From the NCBI RefSeq assembly GCF_005280295.1, contig NZ_CP040020.1, forward strand, positions 868,001 to 932,000: a stretch of 64,000 nt of DNA. The letters run 5' to 3'. The first letter of the stretch is position 1. Every line of letters begins with the position of its first letter. The notes below the pieces were generated by a model. It made no database searches. It was not told where the DNA came from and saw only the letters and a program-made list of their open reading frames with translations. This document shows positions 6,156 through 23,323 of this stretch, one piece after another. This stretch comes from Brevibacterium sp. CS2. Lineage in GTDB: Bacteria > Actinomycetota > Actinomycetes > Actinomycetales > Brevibacteriaceae. The translations under genes were made by a program, and so were the position numbers.

Positions 6156-6174
6156 CCTGGCAGGAGGTGCCGAG

Positions 6175-8060: not shown

Positions 8061-8121
8061 CCCCCTCCCGTTTCGCCGCCTCGGGCCCCATGAGGGGGTG
8101 TCGGGGCGGATGCGCGTTCGG

Positions 8122-8130
8122 GTGCACCTG
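8122..8130 (+). repeat. GTGCACCTG boundary motif, copy 2
   Basis: This copy ends six bases before the ATG at 8137 and is in frame with it (reading MHLVGM), the same arrangement as copy 4 at 17506. Confidence 0.6.
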
Positions 8131-8136
8131 GTGGGC

Positions 8137-8808
8137 ATGAACTCGACAGATGCTTCTCGTTCCCGCCGCCGACTGGTCGTCCTGGTCTCGGCCGCAGTCG
8201 TCGTGCTGCTCCTGGTCGGTATCGGGGTCTACGGCCTGGTCGCCGGCCCCCGCACCACCAGCGACCCGCCACCCGCGCCCCCGTCACCGACCGCACCAGG
8301 CACGACGGAGCAGGGGCCGCGGGACCTGGCGCCGATCCCCGAGACCGACGACCCGGAGAAGTTCGTCCGCGCCGTTGCGGAGGCGCTGTTCGGGTGGGAT
8401 ACGACCAGCGGGCTGATGCCGCTGGACTACACCAGCGTGCTCCTGAAGGTTGCCGACCCGTCCGGGGTCGAGCAGGCGGGCCTGGCCTCGGATATCGCCG
8501 GCTATCTCCCGAACCGGGAGACCTGGGTCGAGCTGCGCAAGTACGGCACGACGCAGCGTCTGGAGATCACGGACGTGTTCGTGCCGGAGGCGTGGGCGGA
8601 AGCCGAATCGCAGGCGCAGCCGGGGCAACTAGCGCCGGGCACCACGGCGTACACGGTCGAGGGTGTCCGCCACCGGCAGGGCATCTGGAATGACGAGGCC
8701 ACGTCGAGTGCGCATGAGGTGGCGTTCACGATCTTCCTGACCTGCCCGCCGGACGGCGACCCGTGCTATCTGCTGCGCCTGTCCATCCTCGACCAGCCCC
8801 TGCGCTGA
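8137..8808 (+). CDS. Single-pass membrane transfer protein (VirB8/TcpC-like candidate)
   Basis: A 223-residue protein. The short basic N-terminus (SRSRRR) is followed by one transmembrane helix (about 12-32, VVLVSAAVVVLLLVG), a Pro-rich linker, and a folded exterior domain of about 160 residues with two Cys in LTCPPDGDPCYL. This layout is that of VirB8/TcpC-type scaffold proteins of type IV secretion, but the sequence alone does not prove the fold. ATG 8137 is chosen; GTG 8122 and ATG 8110 are in frame and also possible, and none has a strong ribosome site. It sits directly before the wall hydrolase gene. Confidence 0.65.
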   Translation: MNSTDASRSRRRLVVLVSAAVVVLLLVGIGVYGLVAGPRTTSDPPPAPPSPTAPGTTEQGPRDLAPIPETDDPEKFVRAVAEALFGWDTTSGLMPLDYTSVLLKVADPSGVEQAGLASDIAGYLPNRETWVELRKYGTTQRLEITDVFVPEAWAEAESQAQPGQLAPGTTAYTVEGVRHRQGIWNDEATSSAHEVAFTIFLTCPPDGDPCYLLRLSILDQPLR

Positions 8809-8827
8809 CACCGGGGAGGAGGCTCTG

Positions 8828-10456
8828 ATGCTGCGCAAAGCGATCGCGGGGCTCGCCGCCCTCGTCCTGCTCTGCCCGATGGTCGTCCTCGTCTCGGTCG
8901 GGCTGCTCGTCAACCCCTCCGCCGCCTCCTGCGCAGCCCCTGGCGGCAGCGTGCAGGTCGGCGACATCCCCGACGAACTGACCTCGATCACCCGCCACGG
9001 GGAACAGATCGTCCTCGGCAAGGCCGAGCTCACCCACGCCGCCACGATCATCGAGACCGGTTCGAGCACTGAGGGGGTCGGCCGGGATGGGATCGTGATC
9101 GCGTTGATGGCGGCGCTGACCGAGTCGCGGATGCGGATGCTCGCCAACACCTCTGCGTATCCGGAGAGCGGCGAGTACCCGAACGACGGCAACGGCTCCG
9201 ATAACGACTCTTTGGGGCTGTTTCAGATGCGGCCGGCCTCCGGGTGGGGCACCGTCGCCGAGCTCATGGACCCCGACTATCAGGCCGCCGCGTTCTACGG
9301 CGGCCCCGACGGCCCCAACGCCGGCTCACCCAGGGGGCTGCTGGACATTCCCGGCTGGGAGCAGATGGGCAAGGGCGAAGCCGCCCAGGCCGTGGAAGTC
9401 AGTGCCTTCCCGGACCGGTACGACAACTACGAGCCCGTCGCCGAAGACATCCTCACCGCCCTCACCGGCAGCGGCGAGCCCGGCCCCACCCGTACCCCGG
9501 TCCTGGTGAGCGCGGAACCGGTCGGGTCGGGGCGGGTGGTGTTCCCGCTGCCGGAGGGCACGTGGGTGCCGACCAGCCCGTTCGGGCCGAGGACGCATCC
9601 GATCACCGCGGAGCAGTCCTTCCACACCGGCAGCGATTTCTCCGCCCCGGACGGCACCCCGATCCTCGCCGCCGCCGACGGCACCGTCACGGTCTCGGAG
9701 TTCTCCGGCGGCTACGGGGGTCTCGTCGTCATCGAGCACCGCATCGACGGGAAGACCATGGCGACCGCTTACGCGCATTCCTGGGAGCACGGCATCCACG
9801 TCGCGCCGGGTGACACGGTGCGGGCCGGGCAGCACATCGCCGACGTTGGCAGCTCGGGGATGTCGACGGGGCCGCATCTGCATTTCGAGGTCCGCGACGG
9901 CGGCACCGACGGCGAGTACATCGATCCCGCGAAGTGGCTCAACGACCACGACGCCGCCGACCTCGACGAGTCCGACGTCACCCCACCCGGACAGCACGAG
10001 GACTGCGTCACCCAGCAGGGCACGCCGGGTGATCCGGCCCCGGTCGAGGGCGACCCGGACGAGCTGGTGGACGACCCCACCACGGATGGGCAGATCACAG
10101 TGCGGCTGCGCAGCGTCTACGAACAGACCCTCACCGCGTTCCCGGAGTCGACGTGGGCGTGCTACTCGCCCCGCCCCGGCACCAAGTCCGAGCACCCGAT
10201 CGGCAGAGCCTGCGATGTGGCGTTCGGGAACGCGATCGGCCAGTACCCGACCCCGGCCCAGCTCGAATACGGGTGGCAGGTCACCGACTGGCTCCAAGAG
10301 CACGCCGAGACCCTCGGCGTCGAATACCTGATCTGGCAGGGCAAGATCTGGTCCCTCGCCCGAGCCGGCGAGGGCTGGCGCGACTACACCCGCGGCACCG
10401 ATATCACGACCCGGCACGACGATCACTTGCACATCACGGTCCGAGAGGGGGCGTGA
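8828..10456 (+). CDS. Conjugal cell-wall hydrolase: lytic-transglycosylase-like plus M23 peptidase
   Basis: A 542-residue exported protein behind GGGGAGGAGG. Residues 1-35 are a signal or anchor segment ending near SAASCAAP. Residues about 65-210 look like a lysozyme-type domain, with ALTESRMR (E99) as a candidate catalytic acid and DSLGLFQMRP. Residues about 235-370 are a LytM/M23 zinc endopeptidase: H266 and D270 in HTGSDFSAPDG and H352 in GPHLHFEV are the metal ligands. A C-terminal domain of about 140 residues follows. The protein would cut peptidoglycan locally so that the secretion channel can cross the wall. It overlaps the next gene by one base. Confidence 0.88.
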   Translation: MLRKAIAGLAALVLLCPMVVLVSVGLLVNPSAASCAAPGGSVQVGDIPDELTSITRHGEQIVLGKAELTHAATIIETGSSTEGVGRDGIVIALMAALTESRMRMLANTSAYPESGEYPNDGNGSDNDSLGLFQMRPASGWGTVAELMDPDYQAAAFYGGPDGPNAGSPRGLLDIPGWEQMGKGEAAQAVEVSAFPDRYDNYEPVAEDILTALTGSGEPGPTRTPVLVSAEPVGSGRVVFPLPEGTWVPTSPFGPRTHPITAEQSFHTGSDFSAPDGTPILAAADGTVTVSEFSGGYGGLVVIEHRIDGKTMATAYAHSWEHGIHVAPGDTVRAGQHIADVGSSGMSTGPHLHFEVRDGGTDGEYIDPAKWLNDHDAADLDESDVTPPGQHEDCVTQQGTPGDPAPVEGDPDELVDDPTTDGQITVRLRSVYEQTLTAFPESTWACYSPRPGTKSEHPIGRACDVAFGNAIGQYPTPAQLEYGWQVTDWLQEHAETLGVEYLIWQGKIWSLARAGEGWRDYTRGTDITTRHDDHLHITVREGA

Positions 10457-10722
10457 TGGAGGTCTTCCCGGATTTCGAGGGACTGTCGGGGATCGAGGAC
10501 CTGCGGGAGGTCGCCGGCGCGCTGTTGATGTTCGTGCTGATCGTCGCGGTGCTGATGCTCATCGTCTCAGGCATCTGCTGGGCGATCGGCTCCAGCAACG
10601 GCAACTACCAGCTCGCTCACCGCGGCCGGGCCGGGGTGTTCGTGTCCTTCGCCGGCGCGATCTTCGCCGGTGCCAGCGTCGCCTGGCTGAACTGGCTCAT
10701 CACCATCGGCAACCAGCTCTAA
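10456..10722 (+). CDS. Small two-helix membrane protein, DUF6112/TrbC-like (first copy)
   Basis: An 88-residue protein with two hydrophobic helices: about 23-45 (LLMFVLIVAVLMLIVSGICW) and about 62-84. It shares the plan of the protein at 10867: an N-terminal LSGIEDLREV against LPGIEQLRTI, then a small loop with a short polar stretch. Such proteins sit next to TrbL-like genes in actinobacterial conjugation modules and are thought to be VirB2-like channel or pilin subunits. The ATG overlaps the hydrolase stop (TGATG). Confidence 0.7.
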   Translation: MEVFPDFEGLSGIEDLREVAGALLMFVLIVAVLMLIVSGICWAIGSSNGNYQLAHRGRAGVFVSFAGAIFAGASVAWLNWLITIGNQL

Positions 10723-10752
10723 CCCCCAGCTGCTCGTCGTCGGTTTTCTCTG

Positions 10753-10792
10753 GCCCGCCCCTCGGGTGCTTCGGCACCTCCGGGGGTCGGGC
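10753..10792 (+). terminator. Hairpin with TTCG loop between the two DUF6112-type genes
   Basis: GCCCG...GGGTGC, loop TTCG, GCACC...CGGGC forms a long stem with one or two bulges, followed by TTCTTCGT. It may attenuate transcription within the transfer operon. Confidence 0.55.
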
Positions 10793-10818
10793 TTCTTCGT
10801 GTGCCCCTGGGGGTCGGG

Positions 10819-10827
10819 GTGCACCTG
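10819..10827 (+). repeat. GTGCACCTG boundary motif, copy 3
   Basis: This copy comes 26 bases after the TTCG hairpin and 39 bases before the GTG start at 10867. Confidence 0.55.
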
Positions 10828-10866
10828 GCGGTCGGAACTGTCTCACGTCTCGTGAAAGGGCACATC

Positions 10867-11136
10867 GTGATCGACATCGACCCCAACTCCAGCGGGCTGC
10901 CGGGCATCGAGCAGCTGCGCACGATCGTCGGCGCCGTGATGACCGTCGGCCTCATCCTCAGCGTGCTGGCGATGATCATCTCCGCGATCGTCTGGGCCTA
11001 CGGCTCCAACTCCTCCAACCCGCACCTGGCCGGGCGGGGGAAGACGGGGCTGCTGATCTCCTGCGGCGCTGCCGTGATCTGCGGCGCCGCCGTGGCCCTC
11101 GTGAACTTCGGCTGGTCGGTCGGCCAGCAGGTCTGA
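10867..11136 (+). CDS. Small two-helix membrane protein, DUF6112 family (second copy)
   Basis: An 89-residue protein starting at GTG with AAAGGG upstream. The N-terminus SSGLPGIEQLRTIVGAVMT and the loop SNSSNPHLAGRGKTG match the DUF6112 family. Two transmembrane helices lie at about 20-43 and 62-84. It is probably a VirB2/TrbC-type structural subunit. It pairs with the paralogue ending 145 bases upstream, from which it is separated by a hairpin that could set the ratio of the two. Confidence 0.78.
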   Translation: MIDIDPNSSGLPGIEQLRTIVGAVMTVGLILSVLAMIISAIVWAYGSNSSNPHLAGRGKTGLLISCGAAVICGAAVALVNFGWSVGQQV

Positions 11137-11170
11137 CCCCTTCTTCTGAGTGTGAAAGGAGGGGTGCGCC

Positions 11171-12526
11171 GTGAGCGTGTGCGATATCCCCGTCATCTCC
11201 ACCGTGTGCGATGCGGTCGGCGAGGGCACCGCGTCCTTGATCGCCGCCCCGTTCGACTGGCTCGCCTCCTCGATGGCCGGGGCCGCCGCCTGGCTGATGG
11301 AGACCATGTGGACCGTCTTCGACACCACCACCCTGGTCGACCTGAACCAGGACGGGTTCATCTCGGTCTACAACATCGTCTTCGGGATCGCCCTGTTCAT
11401 CATCGCGATCTTCTTCTTCCTGCAACTGATCACCGGGATGATCCAGCGCGACCCCGGCGCCCTCTCCCGTGCCGCGCTCGGGGCGGGCAAGTCGATCCTC
11501 GGCAGCTTCGTGGTCATCACGTTGACGACGGTGCTGCTGGAGATCGTCGACCAGCTGTGCATCGGCCTCATCCAGGCCGCCGGGGAGACCACCGAATCTA
11601 TGGGCAACCAACTCCTCCTCCTCGCTGGCGCTCTCGCGGGGTTGAACATTACGGCTCCCGGCGTCGGGGCGATCGTCTCGATTTTCCTCGCCGGCCTGAT
11701 GATCGCCGCGATCGGCATCGTCTGGTTCTCCCTCCTGATCCGCAAGGCCCTGATCCTCGTCACCGTCGTGCTGGCCCCGCTGGCCTTGTCGGGGGCGTCG
11801 TGGGATGTGACCAAGGGGTGGATCGGGAAATGGGTGACGTTCCTGATCGCCCTGATTGTCTCCAAGCTCGTCCTCGTCGTGGTGTTCCTGGTCGCGATCA
11901 CGCAGGTCGCGACCCCCATCGACGCCGGCCTGACCGCCGTGACCGAGCCCATCGCCGGGATCGTGCTGCTCGGAATCGCCGCTTTCGCCCCGTACATGGT
12001 CTACCGGCTCCTGAGCTTCGTGGGCTTCGACCTCTACAACACCATGGGCGCCGAACAGGACGCGAAGAACGCCATGAACCGCCCCCTCCCGATCCCCACC
12101 CGGGGCGGCGAGGGCCCGAAGAAGATCCTCGACGGCTCCAGCGGCGGAGGTGATGGTGACGGTGATGGCGGTGGGAGCCCGCCCGCGACGAAGCCGCCCG
12201 CCAGCACCGAGACCGCGGGCACGGAGACCGCGACCGCCGAGGCGGGGACCGAGACTGCCGCGAGCAGCGGGCCTGCCGCCCCGGTCGTGGCCGGCGTGAT
12301 CGTCGCCAAAGAAGCCGCCGAGGCAGGGCCGGCAGCCGGCAACGAGGTCGGCGCCCAGGCCGACACCGCCGCCGCGGGCGCGCAGAACACCGGCAACACC
12401 ACCCCCAACGGCAGCAGCGGCGACGGCGGCCCGGGCGACGGCGGTACGCCGCCGGCTCCGTCGGCACCGGTGCCCAACACCCCGACCGAGCCGTCCGCCC
12501 CGGCAGACCCCGGCACGAAGGAGTAG
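11171..12526 (+). CDS. TrbL/VirB6-like conjugal transfer membrane protein
   Basis: A 451-residue polytopic protein. The first 40 residues contain an amphipathic stretch, then about six helices fill residues 70-290 (among them VFGIALFIIAIFFFLQLITG and KLVLVVVFLVAI). A hydrophilic Gly/Ala/Pro/Thr-rich tail of about 140 residues follows. The plan matches TrbL/VirB6 proteins that line the inner-membrane part of the channel. GTG 11171 is preceded by AAAGGAGGGG. The next gene starts three bases after the stop, so the two are co-translated. Confidence 0.8.
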   Translation: MSVCDIPVISTVCDAVGEGTASLIAAPFDWLASSMAGAAAWLMETMWTVFDTTTLVDLNQDGFISVYNIVFGIALFIIAIFFFLQLITGMIQRDPGALSRAALGAGKSILGSFVVITLTTVLLEIVDQLCIGLIQAAGETTESMGNQLLLLAGALAGLNITAPGVGAIVSIFLAGLMIAAIGIVWFSLLIRKALILVTVVLAPLALSGASWDVTKGWIGKWVTFLIALIVSKLVLVVVFLVAITQVATPIDAGLTAVTEPIAGIVLLGIAAFAPYMVYRLLSFVGFDLYNTMGAEQDAKNAMNRPLPIPTRGGEGPKKILDGSSGGGDGDGDGGGSPPATKPPASTETAGTETATAEAGTETAASSGPAAPVVAGVIVAKEAAEAGPAAGNEVGAQADTAAAGAQNTGNTTPNGSSGDGGPGDGGTPPAPSAPVPNTPTEPSAPADPGTKE

Positions 12527-12529
12527 GCG

Positions 12530-14002
12530 ATGCCCCGCACCGACGACACCACGACCACGGGCGCCGGCGAGCTGGTGCCGGTGAAGTTCTCCCGCCTCAC
12601 CCGACGCGGCCTCATCCTGGGCCTGTCGCTGTCGCAGATGATCGCCCTCGGCATCGGCGGCGCGTCCCTGATCGGGGCGCTCTACGCTGGCGGCGGCATC
12701 CTCATCGCCTACTCCGCCCCCATCTGGGCGGCCGCGATCGCCCTGACCTGGGTGAAGATCAGCGGCCGAGCCTTGGTCGAATGGATACCCGTCTGCGCCT
12801 GGTGGGCCTGGCGCACGACCGGCGGACAGCTCCTCTACCGGCGCCGGATCGTGACCCCCAGGCCCGAGGGTACGCTCGCGCTGCCGGGTGACATGGCCAG
12901 GCTGCGCGAGTACACCGATCCCGAGACGGGGGCCGGGATGATCCACGACCCGACCGCGAACACGCTGACGGTGGTGGTGTCGGTGACGCATCCGGCGTTC
13001 GTGCTGCTGGACCCGTCCGAGCAGCACCGCCGCGTCACCGCCTGGGGCCGTGTGCTGGCGACGATCTGCCGCTCCGGCCGGGTCGCCACCCTCCAAGTCC
13101 TGGAACGGACATTGCCGGATTCGGGGCAGGGGCTCGCCGAATGGTGGGCCGAGCACGGCACCCACGACACCTCCTGGGCTTCGACCACCTATGCAGAGTT
13201 GATCGACCGGGCCGGGCCTGCCGGGGAACGGCACGCCATGACGCTGTCGCTGTCTCTGGATATGAAGGCGGCGGGCCGGCAGATCCGGACCGCCGGCGGC
13301 GGCATCAAGGGCGCGGCGAACGTGCTCCGCCAGGAAATGACCACCCTCGTCTCCGCGCTCCGCGCCGCCGACCTCACCCCGTCCGGGTGGCTGAGTCCCG
13401 GGGAGATCGCGGTGATGCTGCGCACCGCTTACGACCCCGCGATCGGGCCGACCCTGGAACGCCACGGCCAGCTCGGGCAGGACCTCGCCACTGCCGGCCC
13501 CGTCGCCATCGCCGAGACGTGGGAGCGGTTGCGCACCGACTCGGGCTATCACGCCGTGCTGTGGATCAGCGAGTGGCCGAGGGCGATGGTGTATCCCGGG
13601 TTCCTCGCCCCGGTGACCTTGTCGACGGGGATACAGCGATCGATCTCGCTGCTGTGCACCCCGCTGAGGACCGATCAGGCCGTGCGCGACATCCGCAAGA
13701 AGAAGGTGGAGTACATCAGCGACCGCGCCCAGCGAGCGAAGATCGGCCAGATCCAGGACGCCTCCCAGACCGCCGAGTACGAGGACGTGCTGCGGCAGGA
13801 GGCCGACCTGACCGCGGGGCACGGGGTGCTGCGCTACACCGGCCTCATCGCCGTCACCGCCCCGACCATCGAGGAGCTCGACACCGCGGTCGCGGCGATC
13901 GAGCAGGCCGCGATCCAGGCCTCCTGCGAAACCCGGCGCCTGGTCGGGCAGCAGGCCGCCGCGTTCACCGCCGCCGCCCTGCCCATTGCCCGCCGCATCT
14001 GA
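12530..14002 (+). CDS. SCO6880-family type IV secretion protein
   Basis: A 490-residue protein with two transmembrane helices near the N-terminus (about 35-85, the PrgI-like part). A large cytoplasmic domain follows that resembles the N-terminal half of VirB4/TraC (VKFSRLTRRGLILGLSLSQ at the start, LREYTDPETGAGMIHDPTAN later). No Walker motifs are present; the ATPase half is the separate gene at 16006. In related elements these two genes are close neighbours, but here an inverted CHAT-protease gene and one further gene separate them. The stop lies eight bases from the end of that convergent gene. Confidence 0.85.
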   Translation: MPRTDDTTTTGAGELVPVKFSRLTRRGLILGLSLSQMIALGIGGASLIGALYAGGGILIAYSAPIWAAAIALTWVKISGRALVEWIPVCAWWAWRTTGGQLLYRRRIVTPRPEGTLALPGDMARLREYTDPETGAGMIHDPTANTLTVVVSVTHPAFVLLDPSEQHRRVTAWGRVLATICRSGRVATLQVLERTLPDSGQGLAEWWAEHGTHDTSWASTTYAELIDRAGPAGERHAMTLSLSLDMKAAGRQIRTAGGGIKGAANVLRQEMTTLVSALRAADLTPSGWLSPGEIAVMLRTAYDPAIGPTLERHGQLGQDLATAGPVAIAETWERLRTDSGYHAVLWISEWPRAMVYPGFLAPVTLSTGIQRSISLLCTPLRTDQAVRDIRKKKVEYISDRAQRAKIGQIQDASQTAEYEDVLRQEADLTAGHGVLRYTGLIAVTAPTIEELDTAVAAIEQAAIQASCETRRLVGQQAAAFTAAALPIARRI

Positions 14003-14009
14003 GATGTGG

Positions 14010-15071
14010 TCAGTCGGTGGGCTTGACCAGGATCGTGGCGCCGGGGTCGACGTCGGGAGCTGCGGCGAGGGTCGGGAGCTCGGCACCGTCGAGGCCGGCC
14101 ATCTCCAACGCGGCCTGTCCGGACAGATGCGCCGAGCGCACGGACTGCCCGTTCGCAATGGAGGCGTAGAACTGGGCGGCGTAGTTGATGGCGTCTCCGT
14201 CGTCGATGCTGTCGGCCATGCCGATGGCGAACGGGACGACGTCCGCGACGAGTTGATCGATCTGCGCGGCAGATTTGCAGGCGTTGAGCAGCACGAGCAG
14301 GGGCGGGTCGTCAGTGGCGGCGATGGCGCGGGAGAACGCGCGCGCCGTGACGACGTGCCCGGCGTGCGGTGCGTCGGTGTCGTGTTCGAAGACGATGAGG
14401 TCTTCGTTGCTGTGTCCGGAGAAGTGCACGACGTGCGGACGGAACTTGGTGATGCCGTCCAGCAGGTCGCTCGCGGTCGCGGCAGGGCGGACATCGAGTT
14501 CGATCAGGTCTCGGTGCAGCGCGGACTCGACGGCGGATCGGATGCGCTTCTGCTCTCGCCCGACGCGCAGATCGCCTTCGGAGGACGCGCCGAGCAACAG
14601 CACCCGCAGCTTCTCGGGCTTGGGTGCACGCAGTTCCCGGAGCGCTTCGCCGACAGCATGTTCCGTGCGGTCGAAGCGCATTTCGGTTGCCGCACGTTCG
14701 GCAGCCGCACGCCGATCAGCGGCGGTCTGCTCTCGCTTGCGCTTGCGTTCCGCCGCGTCGGCCTCGGAGCGCTCTGCCCGGGCGAGCTTAGTCTGGAGGT
14801 CTGCTTCCTGCTTCCGGTAGCCGGAGGCCTTGTCCGCCCACTTGTTCGCTTCGCTTCCGGCGGACGCGGCCTCCTTGTCGCGCTGGGCGGCCCGGCTCAA
14901 CTTCGATTTCTGTGTCGACGCGCTCTTGGTCTTCGTCGCCTCCTGACGCGCCTTGTCCGCCTCGGCACGCTTCTTCGACTCCTTGTTCCGGTACTCACCG
15001 GCCTTCTTCTCCGCGTCGACGCGCTGCTTGCGCTTGCGCTCCAGCTCCCCGCGGTACTGCTGCGATCCCAC
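14010..15071 (-). CDS. Coiled-coil CHAT-domain (caspase-like) protease
   Basis: A 353-residue cytoplasmic protein. Residues 1-130 are a highly charged Lys/Glu/Ala coiled coil. Residues about 150-350 form a CHAT-type cysteine-peptidase domain: the His is H220 in HVVHFSGHS and the Cys is C265 in LVLLNACKSAAQ, both intact. The start is GTG behind AGAGGAG. It is the only gene on the minus strand in the first 23 kb, convergent with the SCO6880 gene and divergent from 15221, so it has its own promoter. CHAT proteases elsewhere act in phage defence and controlled cell death, and stand-alone coiled-coil CHAT proteins like this occur widely in actinomycetes without a known role. Its substrate and trigger are unknown. 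Confidence 0.82.
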   Translation of the reverse strand: MGSQQYRGELERKRKQRVDAEKKAGEYRNKESKKRAEADKARQEATKTKSASTQKSKLSRAAQRDKEAASAGSEANKWADKASGYRKQEADLQTKLARAERSEADAAERKRKREQTAADRRAAAERAATEMRFDRTEHAVGEALRELRAPKPEKLRVLLLGASSEGDLRVGREQKRIRSAVESALHRDLIELDVRPAATASDLLDGITKFRPHVVHFSGHSNEDLIVFEHDTDAPHAGHVVTARAFSRAIAATDDPPLLVLLNACKSAAQIDQLVADVVPFAIGMADSIDDGDAINYAAQFYASIANGQSVRSAHLSGQAALEMAGLDGAELPTLAAAPDVDPGATILVKPTD

Positions 15072-15135
15072 CCCGGCTCCTCTCGACTCACCTGCGTGGC
15101 AACGCTATCCGGCACCACGGACACAGCAGAGCCGC

Positions 15136-15144
15136 GCGCACCTG
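15136..15144 (+). repeat. Degenerate copy of the boundary motif
   Basis: GCGCACCTG followed by GCAGGCA differs by one base from the GTGCACCTG core but keeps the downstream bases. It lies in the divergent promoter region between the CHAT gene and 15221. Confidence 0.4.
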
Positions 15145-15152
15145 GCAGGCAC

Positions 15153-15190
15153 AGCGCCCCGACCCCTCACCTCCGCCGGGGTCGGGCGCT
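15153..15190 (+). promoter_or_regulatory. Leader hairpin before the 15221 gene
   Basis: AGCGCCCCGACCCC (15153-15166) pairs with GGGGTCGGGCGCT (15178-15190) with one bulged C and an 11-base loop. It sits in the divergent region between the CHAT gene and the rightward transfer genes and could be a terminator or a 5' leader structure. Confidence 0.4.
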
Positions 15191-15220
15191 GCCGCGCCCG
15201 CCGAAACCTGAGGAGTTGTC

Positions 15221-16009
15221 ATGCCGACGTTCACCGATCCCCAAGCAGCTGCTCGCGAAGCCGCCGAGGCCTTGCGCGGGCTCGCGCACGCCACGATCAC
15301 CATCGAGGACCCGCGCGCCATGTATGAGGTCATCGGGGACCTGCTGGCCAGCACCCGGTACCTGGCCCAGGTCACCGATCAGCTCGCCCGGAACCATCAC
15401 CGCAGTGCGGCACGGGCGACGACCGATCACGGCGATCCGCTCGCCGCGCGAACTCTCCTCGGTGACACGATCGACGCGCTGCGCACCGCGTCCGCCCGCA
15501 TGGATCAAGCCGAAGTCTCACTCGACCAGGCGTCCGGGAAGGCGGGGGAGATCGCGTGGAAGCCCGACGATCCGCAGCACCGGTGGGTCAGCATCGTGTT
15601 CATCCAAGGCGAGGACGCGGACCCGGTGGTGGAGATCATCGACCGGCAGGGCACGGACGCCGCGATCGAATACCTCGCCGCCTGGGATCACGGCGAGGAG
15701 ACGGTGAGCGATGCGATGGAGAACGGGTACGTCTACGACACCGCCCCGCACAGCGCCGCCGACCGGCTCGCCACCTCCGGCGACTACGCCCTCACCTACA
15801 GCCCCGACCTGGGCTACGTCGGGCTGTCCCGCCGCATCGACGCGCCCGACCCGGACGCTCCGGCCTCCGGCACCACCACCGCACCGCCCCTATCGGAGCC
15901 TGAGCCGCGGCGGGAGCGGCATCGCCGACCGGCACGGCCGGAAGCGTCGTCGTGGTTCCGGCCGGACGCGATCGACGAGGTCGCCGAGAACCGGGGGCTG
16001 TTGCGGTGA
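15221..16009 (+). CDS. Transfer-associated protein of unknown function
   Basis: A 262-residue soluble protein behind GAGGAG. Residues 1-110 are helical (EAAEALRGLAHATITIEDPR, YEVIGDLLASTRYLAQVTDQ). Residues about 115-205 look like a compact alpha/beta domain containing RWVSIVFIQGEDADPVVEII. The last 60 residues are Pro/Arg-rich. No known motif is seen. The stop overlaps the GTG start of the VirB4-like gene by four bases, so it belongs to the secretion operon. Confidence 0.65.
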   Translation: MPTFTDPQAAAREAAEALRGLAHATITIEDPRAMYEVIGDLLASTRYLAQVTDQLARNHHRSAARATTDHGDPLAARTLLGDTIDALRTASARMDQAEVSLDQASGKAGEIAWKPDDPQHRWVSIVFIQGEDADPVVEIIDRQGTDAAIEYLAAWDHGEETVSDAMENGYVYDTAPHSAADRLATSGDYALTYSPDLGYVGLSRRIDAPDPDAPASGTTTAPPLSEPEPRRERHRRPARPEASSWFRPDAIDEVAENRGLLR

Positions 16010-17487
16010 GCGGCGACCGCGAGAAGCTGCACTCCGCCGTCCTCGTCGCCCCCGCCAAGGAACGCCGCCGACTGCGCCAGCAACGCCGAGCCGCCGCCGC
16101 GGAGCTCGTCGCCGAGCAGCGCACCCGCGAGCGGGCCGAGGCCCGAGCGAAGCGGGAGCGCGAGCGGGCCGAACGGCGGGCGAACCGGTATCTGCCCGCA
16201 GCCGGCGAGCCCGGCCCCGCCACCCTGCGCACGCCGGGCCGGTTCCGCCTCCCGAAGCATCAGGACACCAGCGCGATGCTCGCCGGGGCGTATCCGTTTC
16301 TCGCCGAAGGCGGCCTCGGCTCCCAAGGCGTGTTCATCGGCCAAGACCTCTACTCCGGCGGGTCGTTCGTCTACGACCCCTGGGTGCTGTACGCGAACGG
16401 GGTCATCACCGCCCCGAACATCGTGGTCGCCGGCATCGTAGGCTCCGGCAAGTCGAGCCTCGCGAAGAGCCTCTACACCCGCTCGCTCGGGTTCGGGCGC
16501 CGCGTCTACATCCCCGGCGACCCGAAAGGCGAGCACACCGCCGTCGCCGAGGCCGTCGGGGGCCGGGCAATCAAGCTCGGCCACGGCCTGCCCTCCCGCC
16601 TGAACCCCCTCGATGAGGGATACCGACCCGCCGGGATGAGCGACGAACAATGGACAGCCACCGTCGTCTCCCGGCGACGCGACCTGATCGGGGCGCTCAC
16701 GGAGACCGTGCTGGCGCGACCCATGTCGCCGTTGGAGCACACCGCGATCGACACCGCCCTGGCCGCGACCATGCTGGCCAACTCGGTGCCGATCCTGCCC
16801 ATGATCGTCGACCACCTCCTCGACCCCGAAGGCGACGAGGACGGGAGACTCCAGGAGGACGGGCGGCTGGTCGGACACGCCCTGCGCCGCCTGGTCGCCG
16901 GTGACCTGGCCGGGCTGTTCGACGGCCCCTCGACGGAGGTGTTCGATCCGTCGCTGCCGATGATCTCCCTCGACCTGTCCCAGGTCACCGAGAACTCCAC
17001 CCTCATCAGCGCGCTCATGACCTGCTCGTCGGCGTGGATGGAAGCCGCCCTCCTCGACCCCGCCGGCGGGCAACGCTGGTGCATCTACGACGAAGCCTGG
17101 CGACTCATGTCCCAACCCGCCCTGCTGAAGCGGATGGACGCGCACTGGCGGCTCGCCAGGGCGTACGGGATCGCGAACGCGATGATCTTCCACAAAGTCT
17201 CCGACCTCGACAACGTCGGCGATCAGGGCTCGGCCATGCGCGGCCTCGCCAACTCGTTGTTGGCGAACGCGGAGACGAGGATCATCTACCGGCAGGAGTC
17301 CGACCAGCTCGGCCCCACCTCCGCGGCGCTCGGGCTGACCGGCACCGAGCAGGCCCTGCTGCCCACGCTTGGTGTCGGGCAGGGTCTGTGGAAGATCAAG
17401 GGCTCCTCCTACGTCGTCCAACACCAGCTACACCCCGCCGAAAACCGACTCTTCGACACGAGCTCGCGAGCGGCGGCGCGCAGCTAG
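16006..17487 (+). CDS. VirB4/TraE-like type IV secretion ATPase
   Basis: A 493-residue cytoplasmic ATPase that powers assembly or transport in the conjugation channel. The N-terminal 60 residues are Arg/Ala/Glu-rich and probably a coiled coil. Walker A is GIVGSGKSS (143-151); Walker B ends in WCIYDEAWRL (D362, E363); GDPKGEH near 171 is typical of the VirB4/FtsK/HerA group. It lacks the N-terminal domain of full-length VirB4, which the SCO6880-family protein probably supplies. The GTG start overlaps the previous stop by four bases. Confidence 0.88.
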   Translation: MSGDREKLHSAVLVAPAKERRRLRQQRRAAAAELVAEQRTRERAEARAKRERERAERRANRYLPAAGEPGPATLRTPGRFRLPKHQDTSAMLAGAYPFLAEGGLGSQGVFIGQDLYSGGSFVYDPWVLYANGVITAPNIVVAGIVGSGKSSLAKSLYTRSLGFGRRVYIPGDPKGEHTAVAEAVGGRAIKLGHGLPSRLNPLDEGYRPAGMSDEQWTATVVSRRRDLIGALTETVLARPMSPLEHTAIDTALAATMLANSVPILPMIVDHLLDPEGDEDGRLQEDGRLVGHALRRLVAGDLAGLFDGPSTEVFDPSLPMISLDLSQVTENSTLISALMTCSSAWMEAALLDPAGGQRWCIYDEAWRLMSQPALLKRMDAHWRLARAYGIANAMIFHKVSDLDNVGDQGSAMRGLANSLLANAETRIIYRQESDQLGPTSAALGLTGTEQALLPTLGVGQGLWKIKGSSYVVQHQLHPAENRLFDTSSRAAARS

Positions 17488-17505
17488 GAACACCAGGAGG
17501 GGCGG

Positions 17506-17514
17506 GTGCACCTG
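17506..17514 (+). repeat. GTGCACCTG boundary motif, copy 4
   Basis: Its first three bases are the probable GTG start of the next gene, five bases after AGGAGG. The following bases GCGGGCATG repeat the layout of copy 2. Confidence 0.6.
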
Positions 17515-18066
17515 GCGGGCATGAGACACGCACACCCCCCTGCCGATTCGACCAGTTCCGCACCGGTGTCCGTGCCGCATCTCGTGCTCCACGTGCACGA
17601 GGACGGCACCCTCACCGCCACCCTCGACCACCACCCGGTCGCCGCGCCGGATGATGTGGGGGCGTGGCGGCGGGCGATGTTCGCGCAGATCATCGATCAC
17701 GTCACCGGCGACCGGACGATCCCGGTTCGCGTCACCGTGCACGAGGTGGACGGCAGCTCCTTCACCGACATCCTCCCCGCCGTCAAACGCCCCACCCCGA
17801 AGCGCGACACGGACTCGGAGCCGGAGCCGGTGAAAAAGCCGGGCCGGCGTCGTCGCGGGGCCGGTCCCATCGAGGTCGACGGCGGTGACGGGTTCATCTC
17901 CGGCGAAGACATCGCCGTCGCCCTCATCGTCGCCCACACCGACGCGACCCCGGATGGGCGGGCCCGCGCCCTCCTCGACCCCCAGGTCATCGCCGCGGCG
18001 AAGGCGGCGGAGGTGGTGCTGGTCGGGCGCGTCTCGGGCACGATCGCCGTCCGGGGCCTGCCGTGA
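17506..18066 (+). CDS. Transfer-operon protein of unknown function
   Basis: A 186-residue protein. Residues about 20-95 form a small beta-rich domain (HLVLHVHEDGTLTATLDHHP) that includes RAMFAQIIDHV. A basic linker with KKPGRRRRG follows, and then a C-terminal region of about 60 residues (FISGEDIAVALIVAHTDATP). I do not recognise the family. GTG 17506 has the best ribosome site (AGGAGG, five bases); ATG 17521 is the alternative. The stop overlaps the coupling-protein start by four bases, so it may act with that protein. Confidence 0.65.
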   Translation: MHLAGMRHAHPPADSTSSAPVSVPHLVLHVHEDGTLTATLDHHPVAAPDDVGAWRRAMFAQIIDHVTGDRTIPVRVTVHEVDGSSFTDILPAVKRPTPKRDTDSEPEPVKKPGRRRRGAGPIEVDGGDGFISGEDIAVALIVAHTDATPDGRARALLDPQVIAAAKAAEVVLVGRVSGTIAVRGLP

Positions 18067-19847
18067 CCGGCCCGCAGGGCCGCCCCGGCCAGCCGATGGG
18101 CGACGAGCTCGCCAACCTCCTGCTCATCGCGATCGGCGGGCTGCTCGGGGTCGCCTTCGTGCTCCGCGCCGCGGGAAGCGTCGCCGCGTTCCTCACCGGC
18201 ACCCCGCAGCCGACCGCCGGGGCGACCGGCGGGGTCGCGGTGTTCTTCCACCCGGCGGACCCGGGCGGGCAGCTCGGCGCCGCCGGCCTGAACCCGGTCG
18301 TCTACTGGATCACCGCCGCCCTCATGCTCACCGCCCTGACCGCGGCAGGTCTCTGGGCCTGGAGCCTGATCCGCCGGCGGACCCGGCAGGCCGCGGGCGA
18401 TCCGCACCGGCAGGAGGGCACCGCCACCGGTCACGAGGTCGCTAAGGTCGCGTCGGCGAAGGCACTCATGCGACGGGCCGGCACTCTCCGCCCCAGCCTG
18501 GCGAACCCGCGGCCGGGCGATGTCGGGTATCGGCTCGGCACCGCGCACCGCCACGAGGTGTGGGCGAGCGTGGAGGACTCGATCCTGCTGATCGGCCCGC
18601 CCCGCTCCGGCAAGGGCCTGCACCTGATCATCCCCGCGATCCTCGACGCACCCGGCGCCGTCGTCACCACCAGCACCAGGCCGGATAACGTCACCGCCTG
18701 CCTGCGCGCCCGCAAGCGCATCGGCCCGGTGGCGGTGTTCGACCCGCAGCATCTCGCCGAGGGCCTGCCTGCGGGGATGCGGTGGTCACCGATCCGGGGC
18801 TGCGAGTCCCCGCAGACCGCGATGATCCGCGCCGCCGGCCTGGCCTCTGCCACCGGCTTGTCCGCGGGCGGGGTCGAAGGGGGTGACTTCTGGGAAGGCA
18901 AGACCCGCGCCGCGCTGCAAGCGCTACTGCACGCCGCCGCCCTCGACGGCCGCTCACCGTCTGAGCTGTTCCGGTGGACCCTCGACCCCACCTCGGCGGC
19001 AGATGCGGTCGCGATCCTCACCAACCACCCCGACGCCGCGACCGGATGGGCGGACTCGCTCGCGTCGATGATCGACGCCGACCCGCGCACCCGCGACTCG
19101 ATCTGGCAAGGCGTCAGCCTCTCTCTCGCGGCGCTGGCCGATCCAAGGGTGCTCGATGCGGTCTCACCCGCCGAGGGTGAAGAGTTCGACCCCGAGGCAT
19201 TCATCCGTGAGCGCGGCACCCTGTTCCTCCTCGCCACCGGCGCCGGCGCCGGGAACAGCGCCGCACTCGTCACCGCGCTGGTCGAAGACCTCGTGGAGAC
19301 CGCCCGTCGCATGGCCGCCCGCTCGACGGGTGCCCGGTTGGACCCGCCGATGCTGTTGTGCCTGGATGAGATCGGGAACCTGGCGCCTCTTCCCAGCCTG
19401 CCGACGTTGATGGCCGAGGGCGGCGGCACCGGCATTACCACCCTCGCCGTGCTCCAGTCCCTGGCGCAGGCGCGGGACAAGTGGAACGAGCACCAGGCCG
19501 GCGCGATCTGGGATGCGTCCATCGTGAAAATCATCCTCGGCGGCGCCTCCAACAGCCGCGACCTCCAGGACCTCTCCACGCTCATCGGGGAACGCGACGA
19601 GCTCACTGACACCACCACCGTCGGCGACCACGGCTCCCGCTCCAACCAACGCTCGGTGCGGCGGGTCGCGATCCTCCCGCCCGATCACATCCGACGCCTG
19701 CCGTTCGGCACCGCGGTGACCCTGCTGCGGTCGGCGCCCCCGATCATCACCGACCTGCGGGCCTGGCCCGCCCGCCCCGACGGCAAACAGATCCAGTCGG
19801 ATCGAGCCGAGGTCGAACAGCTCCTGCACAACGCCCACCGCGAGTAG
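18063..19847 (+). CDS. VirD4/TraG-like type IV coupling protein
   Basis: A 594-residue membrane-bound ATPase that brings the relaxase-DNA complex to the channel. Two transmembrane helices lie at about 17-38 and 80-103. The ATPase domain has Walker A GPPRSGKG (178-185) and Walker B MLLCLDEIGN. GGTGITTLAVLQSLAQARDK is the region typical of TraG/VirD4 proteins, and a six-helix insertion lies between. The start is GTG, overlapping the preceding gene. With the VirB4-like ATPase this makes a complete transfer motor. Confidence 0.9.
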   Translation: MTGPQGRPGQPMGDELANLLLIAIGGLLGVAFVLRAAGSVAAFLTGTPQPTAGATGGVAVFFHPADPGGQLGAAGLNPVVYWITAALMLTALTAAGLWAWSLIRRRTRQAAGDPHRQEGTATGHEVAKVASAKALMRRAGTLRPSLANPRPGDVGYRLGTAHRHEVWASVEDSILLIGPPRSGKGLHLIIPAILDAPGAVVTTSTRPDNVTACLRARKRIGPVAVFDPQHLAEGLPAGMRWSPIRGCESPQTAMIRAAGLASATGLSAGGVEGGDFWEGKTRAALQALLHAAALDGRSPSELFRWTLDPTSAADAVAILTNHPDAATGWADSLASMIDADPRTRDSIWQGVSLSLAALADPRVLDAVSPAEGEEFDPEAFIRERGTLFLLATGAGAGNSAALVTALVEDLVETARRMAARSTGARLDPPMLLCLDEIGNLAPLPSLPTLMAEGGGTGITTLAVLQSLAQARDKWNEHQAGAIWDASIVKIILGGASNSRDLQDLSTLIGERDELTDTTTVGDHGSRSNQRSVRRVAILPPDHIRRLPFGTAVTLLRSAPPIITDLRAWPARPDGKQIQSDRAEVEQLLHNAHRE

Positions 19848-19875
19848 ATGACGCCGGCGGGCCTGGGGTGGTCGG

Positions 19876-19884
19876 GTGCACCTG
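19876..19884 (+). repeat. GTGCACCTG boundary motif, copy 5
   Basis: This copy lies 29 bases after the coupling-protein stop and 57 bases before the SSB-like start. Read as codons it would begin a 15-residue peptide (MHLSATSSPDDERAA) ending at the TGA at 19921, which may be accidental. Confidence 0.55.
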
Positions 19885-19941
19885 TCTGCCACGAGCAGCC
19901 CCGACGACGAGCGGGCGGCATGAGCAGAGCAGGAGCACACG

Positions 19942-20421
19942 ATGAGCGAGCAGAAACCAGACGTCGACCCGGAGATCGGTCAGGCGTTCTACGGGTTCGT
20001 CGCCTCCGAACCGCAGCTGACCTGGCATGACGGCAAGCCGCGCCTGTACTTCAAGGCGGGGCAGGAGCACTACGAGTACGGCCCGGACGGGTCGCGCACC
20101 AAGCTGCCGACCACCTTCCACGATGTCGTCGCGTTCCGCGGCGCCGCGAAGAGCGGTGGCGAGATGCTGTCCAAGCAGGACTGGTTCATCGCGCACGGCC
20201 GCCTCGAAACCAGCACGAACCCGAACACCGGGGTGGAGAGCAAGGAGTTCATCGCCAACCGGTTCGGCCCCGACGCCGCCCGGATGAACATCGAGATTGG
20301 CACGCCGCGCCGGCTGTCGCAGATGGGGTCCCCGAACCCGCAGCAGCCGCAGCGTCAGGGCGGGTTCGAGCCGCCCGAGCAGGGACAGCCCGCCCACGAG
20401 CAGCCCTCACGGGCCATGTGA
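19942..20421 (+). CDS. Element-encoded single-stranded-DNA-binding-like protein
   Basis: A 159-residue protein with an SSB-like OB fold: an N-terminal FYGFVASEPQLTW, then LPTTFHDVVAFRGAAKSG, then DWFIAHGRLE. A Gln/Pro-rich tail of about 45 residues follows. It is quite different from the housekeeping ssb at 59726 and lacks the acidic DDEPPF tip. It would coat transferred single strands in the recipient or during element replication. An RBS AGGAGCAC precedes ATG 19942. Confidence 0.78.
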   Translation: MSEQKPDVDPEIGQAFYGFVASEPQLTWHDGKPRLYFKAGQEHYEYGPDGSRTKLPTTFHDVVAFRGAAKSGGEMLSKQDWFIAHGRLETSTNPNTGVESKEFIANRFGPDAARMNIEIGTPRRLSQMGSPNPQQPQRQGGFEPPEQGQPAHEQPSRAM

Positions 20422-20436
20422 ACGGCGGCGGACGCG

Positions 20437-21042
20437 ATGAACGACACCACCACCCCGCCCGACCGCCCCGAACCGGAGGAGTGGGACGACGAGGACTTCG
20501 GTCCGGTCGGCCCCGACGATGATGTGCCGGGGCCGCCGCGGCCGGTGAACTGGAACCTGCTGCTCGCGCACGACCTGGAGCAGGAATGGCTCGCCCTCAA
20601 CCGTTGGGTCGAGTGGGTCAGGAGAGAGTACGCGCTGCCCGCATCGGTGATCCCGCCGTTGTGGCACCGGCATCCGGCGCTGAAGTGGGAGCTTTCCGCG
20701 CTGCACCTGCACTGGCTCGCCGCGTACGATCCGGAACAGGACGCCTCGGCCGCGATCGGGTGGCACCGCGACTTCGCCGCCGCCCGGCAGCGGCTGCGCG
20801 ACTGGGTCGCCGCCTCCGGCACCCGCCTGGATCGCGACCGCCCCGACCGGCAGACCGCCTGGCCCGGCGAGCCCCCGGCCCCACCGGTCGAAGACATCCC
20901 CATCACGAACCGGCGCGAGGACTTCGTGGCCTTCGTGATCGAACAGGTCGCCCGCCGCAAAGCCGCCGAAGACGCCTTCTTCGCCCGCCTCGACGACGCC
21001 GACCTCGACACCGACATGGGTAGAGATTCCGAAGGCGGGTGA
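20437..21042 (+). CDS. DUF4913-type protein
   Basis: A 201-residue protein. The Asp/Glu/Pro-rich N-terminus (about 1-40) precedes a conserved core with LNRWVEWVRREYALP, then IPPLWHRHPALKWELSALHL and WHRDFAAARQRLRDW, as in DUF4913 proteins of actinobacterial plasmids and conjugative elements. No catalytic function is known. It follows the SSB-like gene by 15 bases and is followed at once by a small basic protein gene. Confidence 0.75.
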   Translation: MNDTTTPPDRPEPEEWDDEDFGPVGPDDDVPGPPRPVNWNLLLAHDLEQEWLALNRWVEWVRREYALPASVIPPLWHRHPALKWELSALHLHWLAAYDPEQDASAAIGWHRDFAAARQRLRDWVAASGTRLDRDRPDRQTAWPGEPPAPPVEDIPITNRREDFVAFVIEQVARRKAAEDAFFARLDDADLDTDMGRDSEGG

Positions 21043-21338: not shown

Positions 21339-21414
21339 GTCGTGACCGCCAGTCGGCGCCCGCACCCAACCCCATCGCTGGGGGCTGGGTGAGAGCCCGA
21401 AAGGCAGTCACGAC
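21339..21414 (+). promoter_or_regulatory. Structured leader of the recombinase gene
   Basis: GTCGTGACCGCC (21339-21350) pairs with GGCAGTCACGAC (21403-21414), 11 of 12 positions, closing just before the ATG at 21416. Inside it, CACCCAACCCC pairs with GGGGCTGGGTG (from 21363 to about 21391). A further small stem, CCCTG/CAGGG, lies at 21253-21276. The 166-base gap before the recombinase carries no gene, so this is likely a regulatory RNA structure or a dyad protein site. Confidence 0.5.
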
Positions 21415-21415
21415 C

Positions 21416-23323
21416 ATGACGCTCATCGACCTCCCCGCCGGCCTCGACCTAAGCGCCCTGCGCACACTCGCCACCGGCCCGAAACCCTCCCACGAGGCGA
21501 CGGCCCTTCCTGATGGGAAGGTGCCCGCGATCTCCTACCTGCGGGTCTCCACCAAGGACCAGGCCACCCGCAACGGTCTCGAAGAAGGCCTCTCCATCCC
21601 CGCGCAGCGGGACGCCGCGCAGCGCAAGGCCGACCAACTGAACGCCGTCATCGTCGCGGAGTTCATCGAGCCCGGCGAGTCCGGCAAGACCGCCCGCCGC
21701 AAAGCGCTCCAGGAGATGCTGGACTACCTCGCCGAGCACCCCGTCAGGTACTGCATCATCAACAAAGTCGACCGCATCGCGAGGAACCGGCTCGATGACG
21801 CGATCATCCACGCCACCCTCCGCCAGGCCGGGGTCACGCTCGTGTCCGTCATGGAGAACATCGACGAGACCCCATCCGGGATGCTGATGCACGGCATCAT
21901 GGCCTCCATCGCCGAGTTCTACAGCCTGAACCTCGCCCAGGAGGTCACCAAGGGGCTCGTGCAGAAAGCCACGATCGGCGGCACCCCGCACAAGGCGCCC
22001 ATCGGCTACCTCAACATCCGCACCGTCGACGCGGGCGGGCACGAAGTCCGCGAGGTGCGGCTCGATCCCGACCGGGCCGAGCTGATCCGGTTCACGTTCA
22101 CCGCTTACGCCACCGGGGACTGGTCGCTGTCGAGGCTCGCCAGGGAGCTGGAGACCCGCGGCCTCACCACGAGGCCGACGCCGTCGTTCCCGGCGAAGCC
22201 GGTCACCACGACCGCGCTGCACAAGATCCTCACCAACCCCTACTACCAGGGCATCGTCACCTTCCGCGACGTCACCTACCCCGGCACGCACGATCCGCTC
22301 GTGACGCCGGAGACGTTCGAGCAGGTGCAGACGATCCTGCGACAGAACCACGTCGTCGGCGACAAGCCCCAGAAGTACGACCACTACCTCAAAGGCTCGA
22401 TCTACTGCGCCTGCGGGAAACGGCTCATGTTCGAGCGGCCCCGCAACCACCAGGGCGTCGCCTACGACTACTTCACCTGCACCGGCCGTCGGTTCAAGCG
22501 CAACAACTGCCAGCGCACCGCCGTCCTCACCCACCGCGTCGAGCAGTCCATCGAGGCCGGCTACCAGGACATCTCCCTCAGTCCCGGCGAGGCCGCGCAG
22601 GTCCAGGGCGTGCTCAGGCAGGTGTTCGACACCCTCGCCGAATCCACCAGCGATGAGAAGAAGCTCCTCGCCGGGCAGAAGGCCAAGCTCGAAGCCGAAC
22701 AGGTCAAGCTCCTCCAAGCCCACTACGCCGACGCGATCCCCCTCGACCTGCTCAAGACCGAACAGGACCGCATCCGCGCGAGCCTGCAAGCGATCACCAG
22801 CCGGCTCGACACGTTGGAGACGACCTACGACAAGGCCAAGGTCGGGCTCGACGCGATCCTCGGGCTCCTCACCGACATCGGCGACGTCTACGCCAAGGCC
22901 GAACCCTCAGAGCGGAGGATGCTCAACCGGGCACTGTTCGACCGCATCACCATCGATGACGAGGACGACGCCACCCTCCAACCGACTGAAGCGATCCAGA
23001 CGATCCTGGCCACCAACCCCAGGCCACACAACGAAAGAACCTTGCCCCGCGATGATGCGGGGCAAGGTTCGAACGTTCAACTTTACGTGGAGGTAAGGGG
23101 ACTCGAACCCCTAACCCCCTGCTTGCAAAGCAGGTGCGCTACCAATTGCGCCATACCCCCGCGGTCCGTCACACGTGATCGGTGTACTGGGACCAGGTCT
23201 GATGAGTGCGCTGCCGTCTGCTGCGGAATCCGAGGAGAACTCCGGCTGCCGCGGACAGCACTCCCGTCAGGGTCAACCACTTCTTCACAACGTCTCCGTC
23301 CGGTCGTGGTTCCGTGGGCCTAA
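21416..23323 (+). CDS. Large serine recombinase (integrase/excisionase of the element)
   Basis: This protein inserts and excises the element. The N-terminal resolvase domain has the nucleophile S45 in SYLRVSTKDQA, and AEHPVRYCIINKVDRIARN follows. The recombinase domain ends near residue 300. A zinc ribbon (CACGKRLMF, then YFTCTGRRFKRNNC) and a coiled coil (about 400-470) come next. ATG 21416 is chosen; GTG 21389 is an in-frame alternative inside the leader hairpin. The frame does not stop at the element end: it runs through the tRNA-Ala gene and part of the DLW-39 gene to 23323. The last 80-100 codons are therefore probably chromosomal sequence, and the excised form would end differently. Confidence 0.9.
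   Translation: MTLIDLPAGLDLSALRTLATGPKPSHEATALPDGKVPAISYLRVSTKDQATRNGLEEGLSIPAQRDAAQRKADQLNAVIVAEFIEPGESGKTARRKALQEMLDYLAEHPVRYCIINKVDRIARNRLDDAIIHATLRQAGVTLVSVMENIDETPSGMLMHGIMASIAEFYSLNLAQEVTKGLVQKATIGGTPHKAPIGYLNIRTVDAGGHEVREVRLDPDRAELIRFTFTAYATGDWSLSRLARELETRGLTTRPTPSFPAKPVTTTALHKILTNPYYQGIVTFRDVTYPGTHDPLVTPETFEQVQTILRQNHVVGDKPQKYDHYLKGSIYCACGKRLMFERPRNHQGVAYDYFTCTGRRFKRNNCQRTAVLTHRVEQSIEAGYQDISLSPGEAAQVQGVLRQVFDTLAESTSDEKKLLAGQKAKLEAEQVKLLQAHYADAIPLDLLKTEQDRIRASLQAITSRLDTLETTYDKAKVGLDAILGLLTDIGDVYAKAEPSERRMLNRALFDRITIDDEDDATLQPTEAIQTILATNPRPHNERTLPRDDAGQGSNVQLYVEVRGLEPLTPCLQSRCATNCAIPPRSVTRDRCTGTRSDECAAVCCGIRGELRLPRTALPSGSTTSSQRLRPVVVPWA
23038..23069 (-). terminator. Terminator of the tRNA-Ile/tRNA-Ala unit
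   Basis: A perfect 13-bp stem (AACCTTGCCCCGC with GCGGGGCAAGGTT, loop GATGAT) lies 18 bases beyond the tRNA-Ala 3' end. Read leftward it is followed by CTTTCGTTG, a T-rich tail. It falls inside the recombinase reading frame. Confidence 0.8.
23088..23160 (-). tRNA. tRNA-Ala (anticodon TGC)
   Basis: A 73-base cloverleaf with acceptor GGGGGTA/TACCTCC, D arm GCGCAATTGGTAGCGC, anticodon stem-loop CCTGC-TTTGCAA-GCAGG and T arm with TTCGAGT. The discriminator is A and CCA is not encoded. It is the chromosomal neighbour of the conjugative element. Confidence 0.97.
23169..23288 (-). CDS. DLW-39-like small membrane peptide
   Basis: A 39-codon gene between the two tRNAs. The peptide begins MKKWLTLTGVLSAAAGVLLG (one hydrophobic segment), continues with a basic stretch (FRSRRQR) and ends TWSQYTDHV. 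Size, position beside the gyrA-linked tRNA genes and the DLW/TDxV-type ending match the DLW-39 family of actinomycetes, whose function is unknown. The GTG start has GGAG six bases upstream. It is too short for most gene finders. Confidence 0.75.
   Translation of the reverse strand: MKKWLTLTGVLSAAAGVLLGFRSRRQRTHQTWSQYTDHV

Follow-up and report, generated by a model that had tools for sequence, protein, structure and literature searches.

A helical hairpin joined to a predicted CHAT protease domain: probable single-protein defence cargo of a putative integrative conjugative element

Earlier work has described the CHAT fold, immune effectors of the CHAT type, and the carriage of cargo by conjugative elements. 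In SAVED-CHAT (PDB 8tl0) the sensor and the protease share one chain, and TPR-CHAT (Csx29, of Craspase) is described as a CHAT protease effector with a TPR regulator and a type III-E CRISPR partner. Borvo is tabulated with a CHAT protease domain (PMC10952713) and, in the passages that name it (PMC10952713, PMC10482375), is described as enriched in Actinobacteria and of unknown mechanism. SpbK of ICEBs1 is reported to act against phage SPbeta and to be activated by sensing the phage portal (PMC12847820), and DUF4062 proteins are described as antiphage NADases that also assemble with the phage portal (PMC13174449). PDC-S66 is listed for a single strain of Staphylococcus borealis, as a candidate system yet to be characterised (PMC12482510), and an effector-associated domain (EAD) principle has been set out for larger conflict systems (PMC8195603). 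Against this background we analysed a stretch of 64,000 nucleotides of Brevibacterium sp. CS2 (the window), in which a sequence-only reading had noticed an inverted gene for a coiled-coil CHAT protein within a conjugation operon. The features of this gene and its protein are as follows.

14010..15071, minus strand: coil-CHAT gene, 353 aa, GTG start (open reading frame, coding signature, homologues)
15077..15083, minus strand: ribosome-binding site AGAGGAG, by sequence, 5 bases from the coil-CHAT start codon
15102..15123, minus strand: upstream block TGTCCGTGGTGCCGGATAGCGT, a possible promoter (pattern conserved in aligned slot loci)
14655..15071, minus strand: N-terminal helical hairpin (residues 1-139) made of two helices, 3-47 and 51-139 (AlphaFold2; PDC-S66 match)
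14901..14933, minus strand: conserved turn motif K47-T-K-S-A-S-T-Q-K-S-K57 at the hairpin tip (alignments; helix break at 48-50)
14013..14618, minus strand: CHAT protease domain, residues 152-353
14412..14414, minus strand: H220, presumed catalytic, invariant in 32 sequences and paired by alignment with the histidine of the GH motif in 8tl0
14277..14279, minus strand: C265, presumed catalytic nucleophile, invariant in 32 sequences and paired by alignment with the cysteine of the NAC motif in 8tl0

The coil-CHAT gene is real, and the observation as a whole was confirmed by its reading frame, coding signature, homologues, and selection. Its codon-position G+C of 0.71/0.48/0.85 is of the coding type, and homologues keep the N-terminus from residue 1 on in the alignment. 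Both halves of the protein are under purifying selection in 10/10 homologous pairs tested, with dN/dS between 0.058 and 0.207 in residues 1-135 and between 0.028 and 0.157 in residues 151-353. The protein matched once in its own 3.24-Mb single-contig genome. The claim that the gene has its own promoter fared less well: a search for a sigma-70-type promoter match found none for this gene, and what stands there is only the conserved upstream block. The pattern of this block, TGTCNG..TANCGT, occurs once in the whole window; it is exact in 11/14 aligned slot loci (with 2-3 mismatches in L024, L038, and L032), the pattern having been derived from the alignment of those same 14 loci.

The C-terminal half takes a caspase-type alpha/beta fold in the AlphaFold2 model and by superposition, and the His-Cys dyad sits in the expected motifs HFSGH and LN[AS]C. 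The residues of 8tl0 with which the dyad aligns are ones that we take to be catalytic there. Judged from alignment and superposition, H220 and C265 probably lie together, in agreement with what the sequence-only reading expected of a predicted structure; its description of a coiled coil followed by a CHAT domain with both residues intact is likewise upheld by the modelled fold and by the invariance of the dyad in the 32-row alignment. The Pfam CHAT model PF12770 gave no match to the window protein at 0.01 and matched a full-length homologue (L203) at 2.3e-9, above the gathering score. By modelled fold and dyad, the window protein is a predicted CHAT, or caspase-like, protease.

Compared with the described systems, the window protein shares CHAT with SAVED-CHAT, but a helical hairpin replaces the SAVED domain, for which Pfam and PADLOC scans gave no match. 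Neither the TPR regulator nor the CRISPR partner of TPR-CHAT lies next to the window gene; no TPR or other Pfam domain was found in the protein, and the adjacent genes belong to a type IV secretion system (T4SS). No Borvo-named model appeared among the PADLOC matches of coil-CHAT proteins, and Borvo, compared here by its description alone, could be related to the window protein. The earlier statement that CHAT proteases usually depend on a sensor of their own kind apart from the protease goes too far, since the sensor of SAVED-CHAT is in the same chain and Borvo is tabulated with CHAT (PMC10952713). SpbK resembles the window protein as a single gene of an integrative conjugative element, described as having a helical N-terminal sensor, a flexible linker, and a C-terminal effector; it differs in joining a four-helix bundle to a TIR NADase where the window protein joins a hairpin to CHAT.

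The closest relation of the N-terminal half is to PDC-S66. The hairpin was modelled within the whole protein and also alone (AlphaFold2, pLDDT 92.6), and the match of this PADLOC family (282 positions, compared with 353 residues in the window protein) was confined to residues 1-125, which align to model positions 1-125 at 3.1e-7 and a modest 28 bits. PDC-S66 has the N-terminal hairpin from residue 1 and the same turn motif, but carries TIR where the window protein has CHAT: in a profile search of 246 genomes its C-terminal half proved to be a TIR domain, and the full-length member L167 matched Pfam TIR_2 at 8.4e-24 and the solved NAD(+) hydrolase AbTIR at 2.4e-41. The N-terminal region of PDC-S66 matched 7/7 hairpin-CHAT proteins scanned (the window, Halobacillus, Agrobacterium, Cytobacillus, and three distant from the window's order), starting at residue 1 and almost in register, with E-values from 3.9e-5 to 2.4e-18, and was the top match for six and the second for L205; it matched 0/2 CHAT proteins that have no hairpin. 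Generic coiled-coil models (JetC and others) reached 1.2e-5 at best on hairpin-CHAT proteins. The least significant of the seven PDC-S66 matches, taken by itself, is therefore unconvincing.

We also made the comparison from the CHAT side. A profile of 30 CHAT hairpins and no other proteins (A2) matched a Niallia circulans TIR protein (L209) with 55 bits, ungapped over residues 1-130, a score reached by 0/1000 plain and 0/1000 heptad-preserving shuffles of L209 (maximum 9.2). Two further TIR proteins scored 26.5 and 27.7 bits, with shuffle maxima near 10, and no non-CHAT protein called in L002-L055 and the window scored above 8.0. Against this, A2 gave low scores to two distant CHAT hairpins, those of L205 (12.3 bits) and L166 (7.9 bits), though these scores were higher than any of their own shuffles. 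At 1e-5, A2 found three matches in 296 genomes of the phylum: the window, one A2 row, and one TIR protein. The Niallia TIR hairpin found six in 72,556 plasmid records, namely itself, one other TIR protein, and four CHAT-family genes (Cytobacillus, Streptomyces, and two Halobacillus, one of these annotated merely as hypothetical). Profile-profile comparison (hhalign) of the CHAT hairpin with the TIR hairpin gave 97.8%, 1e-12 over 101 columns; the TIR hairpin of L210 gave only 0.5% against the CHAT hairpin profile. A broader hairpin profile returned eight matches in 261 genomes of the class at 1e-3 (four CHAT, one TIR, one NTPase-type frame, and two weak), three of which (the window, G204, and G796) were rows of the profile; one of the weak matches is an apparently unrelated NlpC/P60-type protein. 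On these sequence comparisons, the hairpin is a module common to CHAT proteins and PDC-S66 TIR proteins. The earlier suggestion that the coil is the protein's own sensor or oligomerisation device gains plausibility, because the coil is a conserved module that TIR proteins carry too.

Three further hairpin loci were seen in passing. The NTPase-type frame (L216:3260-9304, G923) is an open frame of 2014 codons with the hairpin (2.8e-24) directly before an AAA/nSTAND-like NTPase, whose Pfam matches fall below their cut-offs; by eye, helicase- and trypsin-like parts lie ahead of the hairpin. A hairpin-TIR gene (L208:635-1441, G135) adjoins two short proteins that are TIR-like by eye. On Agrobacterium tumefaciens pTiCFBP5877 (L204:785-5527), three CHAT-annotated genes, one with the hairpin, stand together beside a winged-helix protein and a metallophosphoesterase.

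The genes around the window copy are those of a transfer module.

11171..12526, plus strand: SCO6881-like T4SS gene (3.7e-31, below the curated cut-off)
12530..14002, plus strand: SCO6880-family gene, bounding the cargo slot on the left (NF042935 2.1e-135, above the cut-off)
15221..16009, plus strand: 262-aa gene without a known family, bounding the cargo slot on the right (found next to VirB4 in relatives too)
15952..17487, plus strand: VirB4-like ATPase (profile match)
18063..19847, plus strand: VirD4/TraG coupling protein (profile match)
21389..23323, plus strand: large serine recombinase, 644-aa open reading frame (profile match)

The left 23 kb, which also carry an M23 peptidase and a ParB-like gene and have the serine recombinase at their end, are probably an integrative conjugative element. 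Most of this region (17 kb, positions 6013-23069 of the window) recurs at 98.8% identity in B. senegalense and at about 91-95% in Brachybacterium massiliense and Microbacterium paulum, so the element moves between genera. As the sequence-only reading had it, coil-CHAT is the sole minus-strand gene of the first 23 kb, in the sense that it is the only convincing one; the gene caller also gave weak minus-strand frames at 4852-5256, 5392-5646, and 10567-10824. The last of these, an 85-aa frame that may not be a gene, had its sole clustering match in the near-identical B. senegalense element. Near the right end of the element, the recombinase frame overlaps an opposite-strand tRNA-Ala gene (23087-23160), which is possibly an attachment site or a sign of an overlong frame.

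The position of the CHAT gene recurs. In 23/54 homologous loci (22 by gene calls, all 23 by tblastn) it lies antisense between the SCO6880 and 262-aa/VirB4 genes, with extra genes between CHAT and SCO6880 in L032 and L039; the 54 loci come from a pattern-based search of close relatives only and, with near-copies among them, amount to fewer than 54 independent cases. In the other 31/54 the sequence covered around CHAT showed no SCO6880, VirB4, or VirD4 match; among these, a remnant of the 262-aa gene adjoins CHAT in L019, and transfer genes, SCO6881-type ones included, lie not far from it in L050. Beside CHAT in the 31 non-slot loci no partner gene recurred, bar serine-recombinase-type genes (no more than two genes away in 5/31), in keeping with the earlier remark that no sensor or target gene is adjacent. 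A CHAT tree with 58 rows needs 7 changes of the slot label, of which well-supported branches force at least 3, compared with 17.9 in shuffles; thus the gene has moved between the slot and other contexts a few times.

CHAT itself is rare and patchy, being found in 9/396 genomes of the order at 1e-20, and its SCO6880 neighbour in 41/396 at 1e-120. Of 44 SCO6880 matches, the downstream side was examined in 37 CHAT-less relatives; the other seven are the window, G560 and G668, which were retrieved separately, and G420, G493, G631, and G780, which lie outside the set. Among the 37, the slot holds no gene in 21 and other genes in 14, and in the remaining 2 the contig ends there; of the 14, L156 and L158 hold small open reading frames only, and the sequence covered in L151 and L152 stops short of the next T4SS gene. 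The clear defence-type cargo consists of two genes on the minus strand like CHAT: an AbiH gene (PF14253, 1e-19) at L132:4724-6085 (G650) and a DUF4062 gene (PDC-S60, 1.1e-22) at L124:482-1339 (G772). A PDC-M63A-like gene (4.8e-10) adjoins the broken CHAT gene of L039. Other cargo includes an ABC transporter, a monooxygenase, and regulators, and this non-defence cargo marks the slot as a general cargo site. The CHAT frame is broken in 4/24 slot copies, the window counted among the 24, by a frameshift in L006, L039, and L053 (sequencing error possible) and by a Mutator-family transposase in L035, which fits dispensable cargo. The proposal of a cargo hotspot within the transfer module therefore stands: the same T4SS slot recurs with CHAT in 23/54 loci, is variable, and in 14/37 CHAT-less relatives holds other genes, some of them of defence type.

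We also looked at the solo copies, taking the two nearest genes per side that passed the filter (114 genes). At 1e-10, the best 25 of 94 families included Old, AriA, GajA, type IIG restriction enzyme, DrmA, DrmD, RmrA, and BrxH models, and others of these genes (best 25 of 97) were resolvases, integrases, transposase-type genes, and AbiV. The 107 genes at the locus edges likewise carry many defence models (best 25 of 86), so that these are mobile, defence-rich regions with no demonstrable local focus at CHAT; the comparison of 114 with 107 genes showed no local enrichment of defence genes next to solo CHAT relative to the edges.

We favour, as the probable explanation, that coil-CHAT is a self-contained sensor-effector protein of the abortive-infection type, carried as cargo by the conjugative element and protecting its host from phage. 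The layout shared with SpbK, though with a different sensor and with a protease as the killer, together with DUF4062 in the slot, leads us to propose a trigger at the hairpin and activation by clustering of CHAT. What we infer beyond the computed features is the trigger, this clustering, the substrates, and the protection itself. The hairpin would sense a product of infection, or such a product would drive it into oligomers; most simply, the trigger would be a phage component that gathers several coil-CHAT copies, although any particular trigger is less likely than the defence reading as a whole. Gathered hairpins would bring the CHAT domains together and so activate them, and the active protease would cut cell proteins, leading to growth stop or cell death ahead of phage release. 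In other bacteria the same hairpin is joined to TIR, presumably an NADase, so the trigger module would be common and the killing enzyme exchanged. We put at about even the chances of the wider proposal that this so far unnamed hairpin, recognisable by a K/T-x-[ST]-x-[ST]-T turn, serves single-protein immunity as a common trigger joined to TIR, to CHAT, and once to a large NTPase, with bacteria and elements swapping NADase and caspase-like effectors. The defence reading is weakened by the slot cargo, much of which is not defence-like: when 16 of 30 possible cargo open reading frames were scanned with PADLOC, 11/16, AbiH included, had no match at 0.01. The modest or low hairpin scores given above and the edge genes that carry defence models as the neighbours of solo CHAT do also count against it.

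The location of the gene suggests other roles, of which exclusion is the one that we would weigh most seriously while still thinking it unlikely. A protease that responds to the arrival of a plasmid, element, or transfer machinery by killing or arresting the recipient would suit a gene that sits antisense inside the transfer module with its own ribosome-binding site and has homologues on conjugative elements and plasmids, but the 31 loci outside the slot, the lack of a recurring partner, and the many sister elements without CHAT argue against it. The same distribution bears on a protease that would set the timing of transfer by cutting a protein of the T4SS or the element. Its place between core T4SS genes in 23/54 loci would be expected of such a regulator; related slots that are empty (21/37) or hold other genes (14/37), broken copies in the slot, one of them disrupted by a transposase, and the majority of homologous loci with no T4SS gene beside CHAT make this quite improbable. 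The earlier idea that the gene guards or regulates transfer is accordingly disfavoured by the many related elements that do without it and by its frequent presence outside the slot.

A death protein of the addiction type or triggered by stress, without phage specificity, kept for a benefit to the element or to kin, would account for the caspase-like fold and the purifying selection. No antitoxin-like neighbour recurs, and the hairpin is shared with a family filed as a defence candidate (PDC-S66); to this alternative we give a low probability, beneath that of exclusion and above that of a transfer regulator. Lowest of all we place a peripheral arm of a larger conflict system, in which the hairpin would dock to the hairpin of a core NTPase elsewhere in the genome in the manner of the EAD principle, as described in PMC8195603. 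The hairpin before the AAA/nSTAND-like NTPase of G923 is what such a core might look like, but at 1e-3 the hairpin matches once in the window's own genome and no NTPase gene recurs beside CHAT.

If the defence reading of coil-CHAT is right, one sensing module would drive two unrelated death enzymes, acting by NAD destruction and by proteolysis; a trigger found once could be tested with both, and an effector swap would directly test the mode of activation. It would also give a function to the candidate family PDC-S66 and to a CHAT family of many actinobacterial genera, and the cargo slot inside the conjugation operon could be mined for further defence genes. As a separate observation, in one relative (L123:564-5838, G526) the slot is filled by four minus-strand genes, encoding a small membrane-like protein, an 875-aa ATPase, an alpha/beta hydrolase, and a methyltransferase-like protein, which are possibly an undescribed system. 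In the literature searched, mostly outside subscription papers, we found no description of a hairpin common to TIR and CHAT proteins such as the one that links the window protein to PDC-S66.
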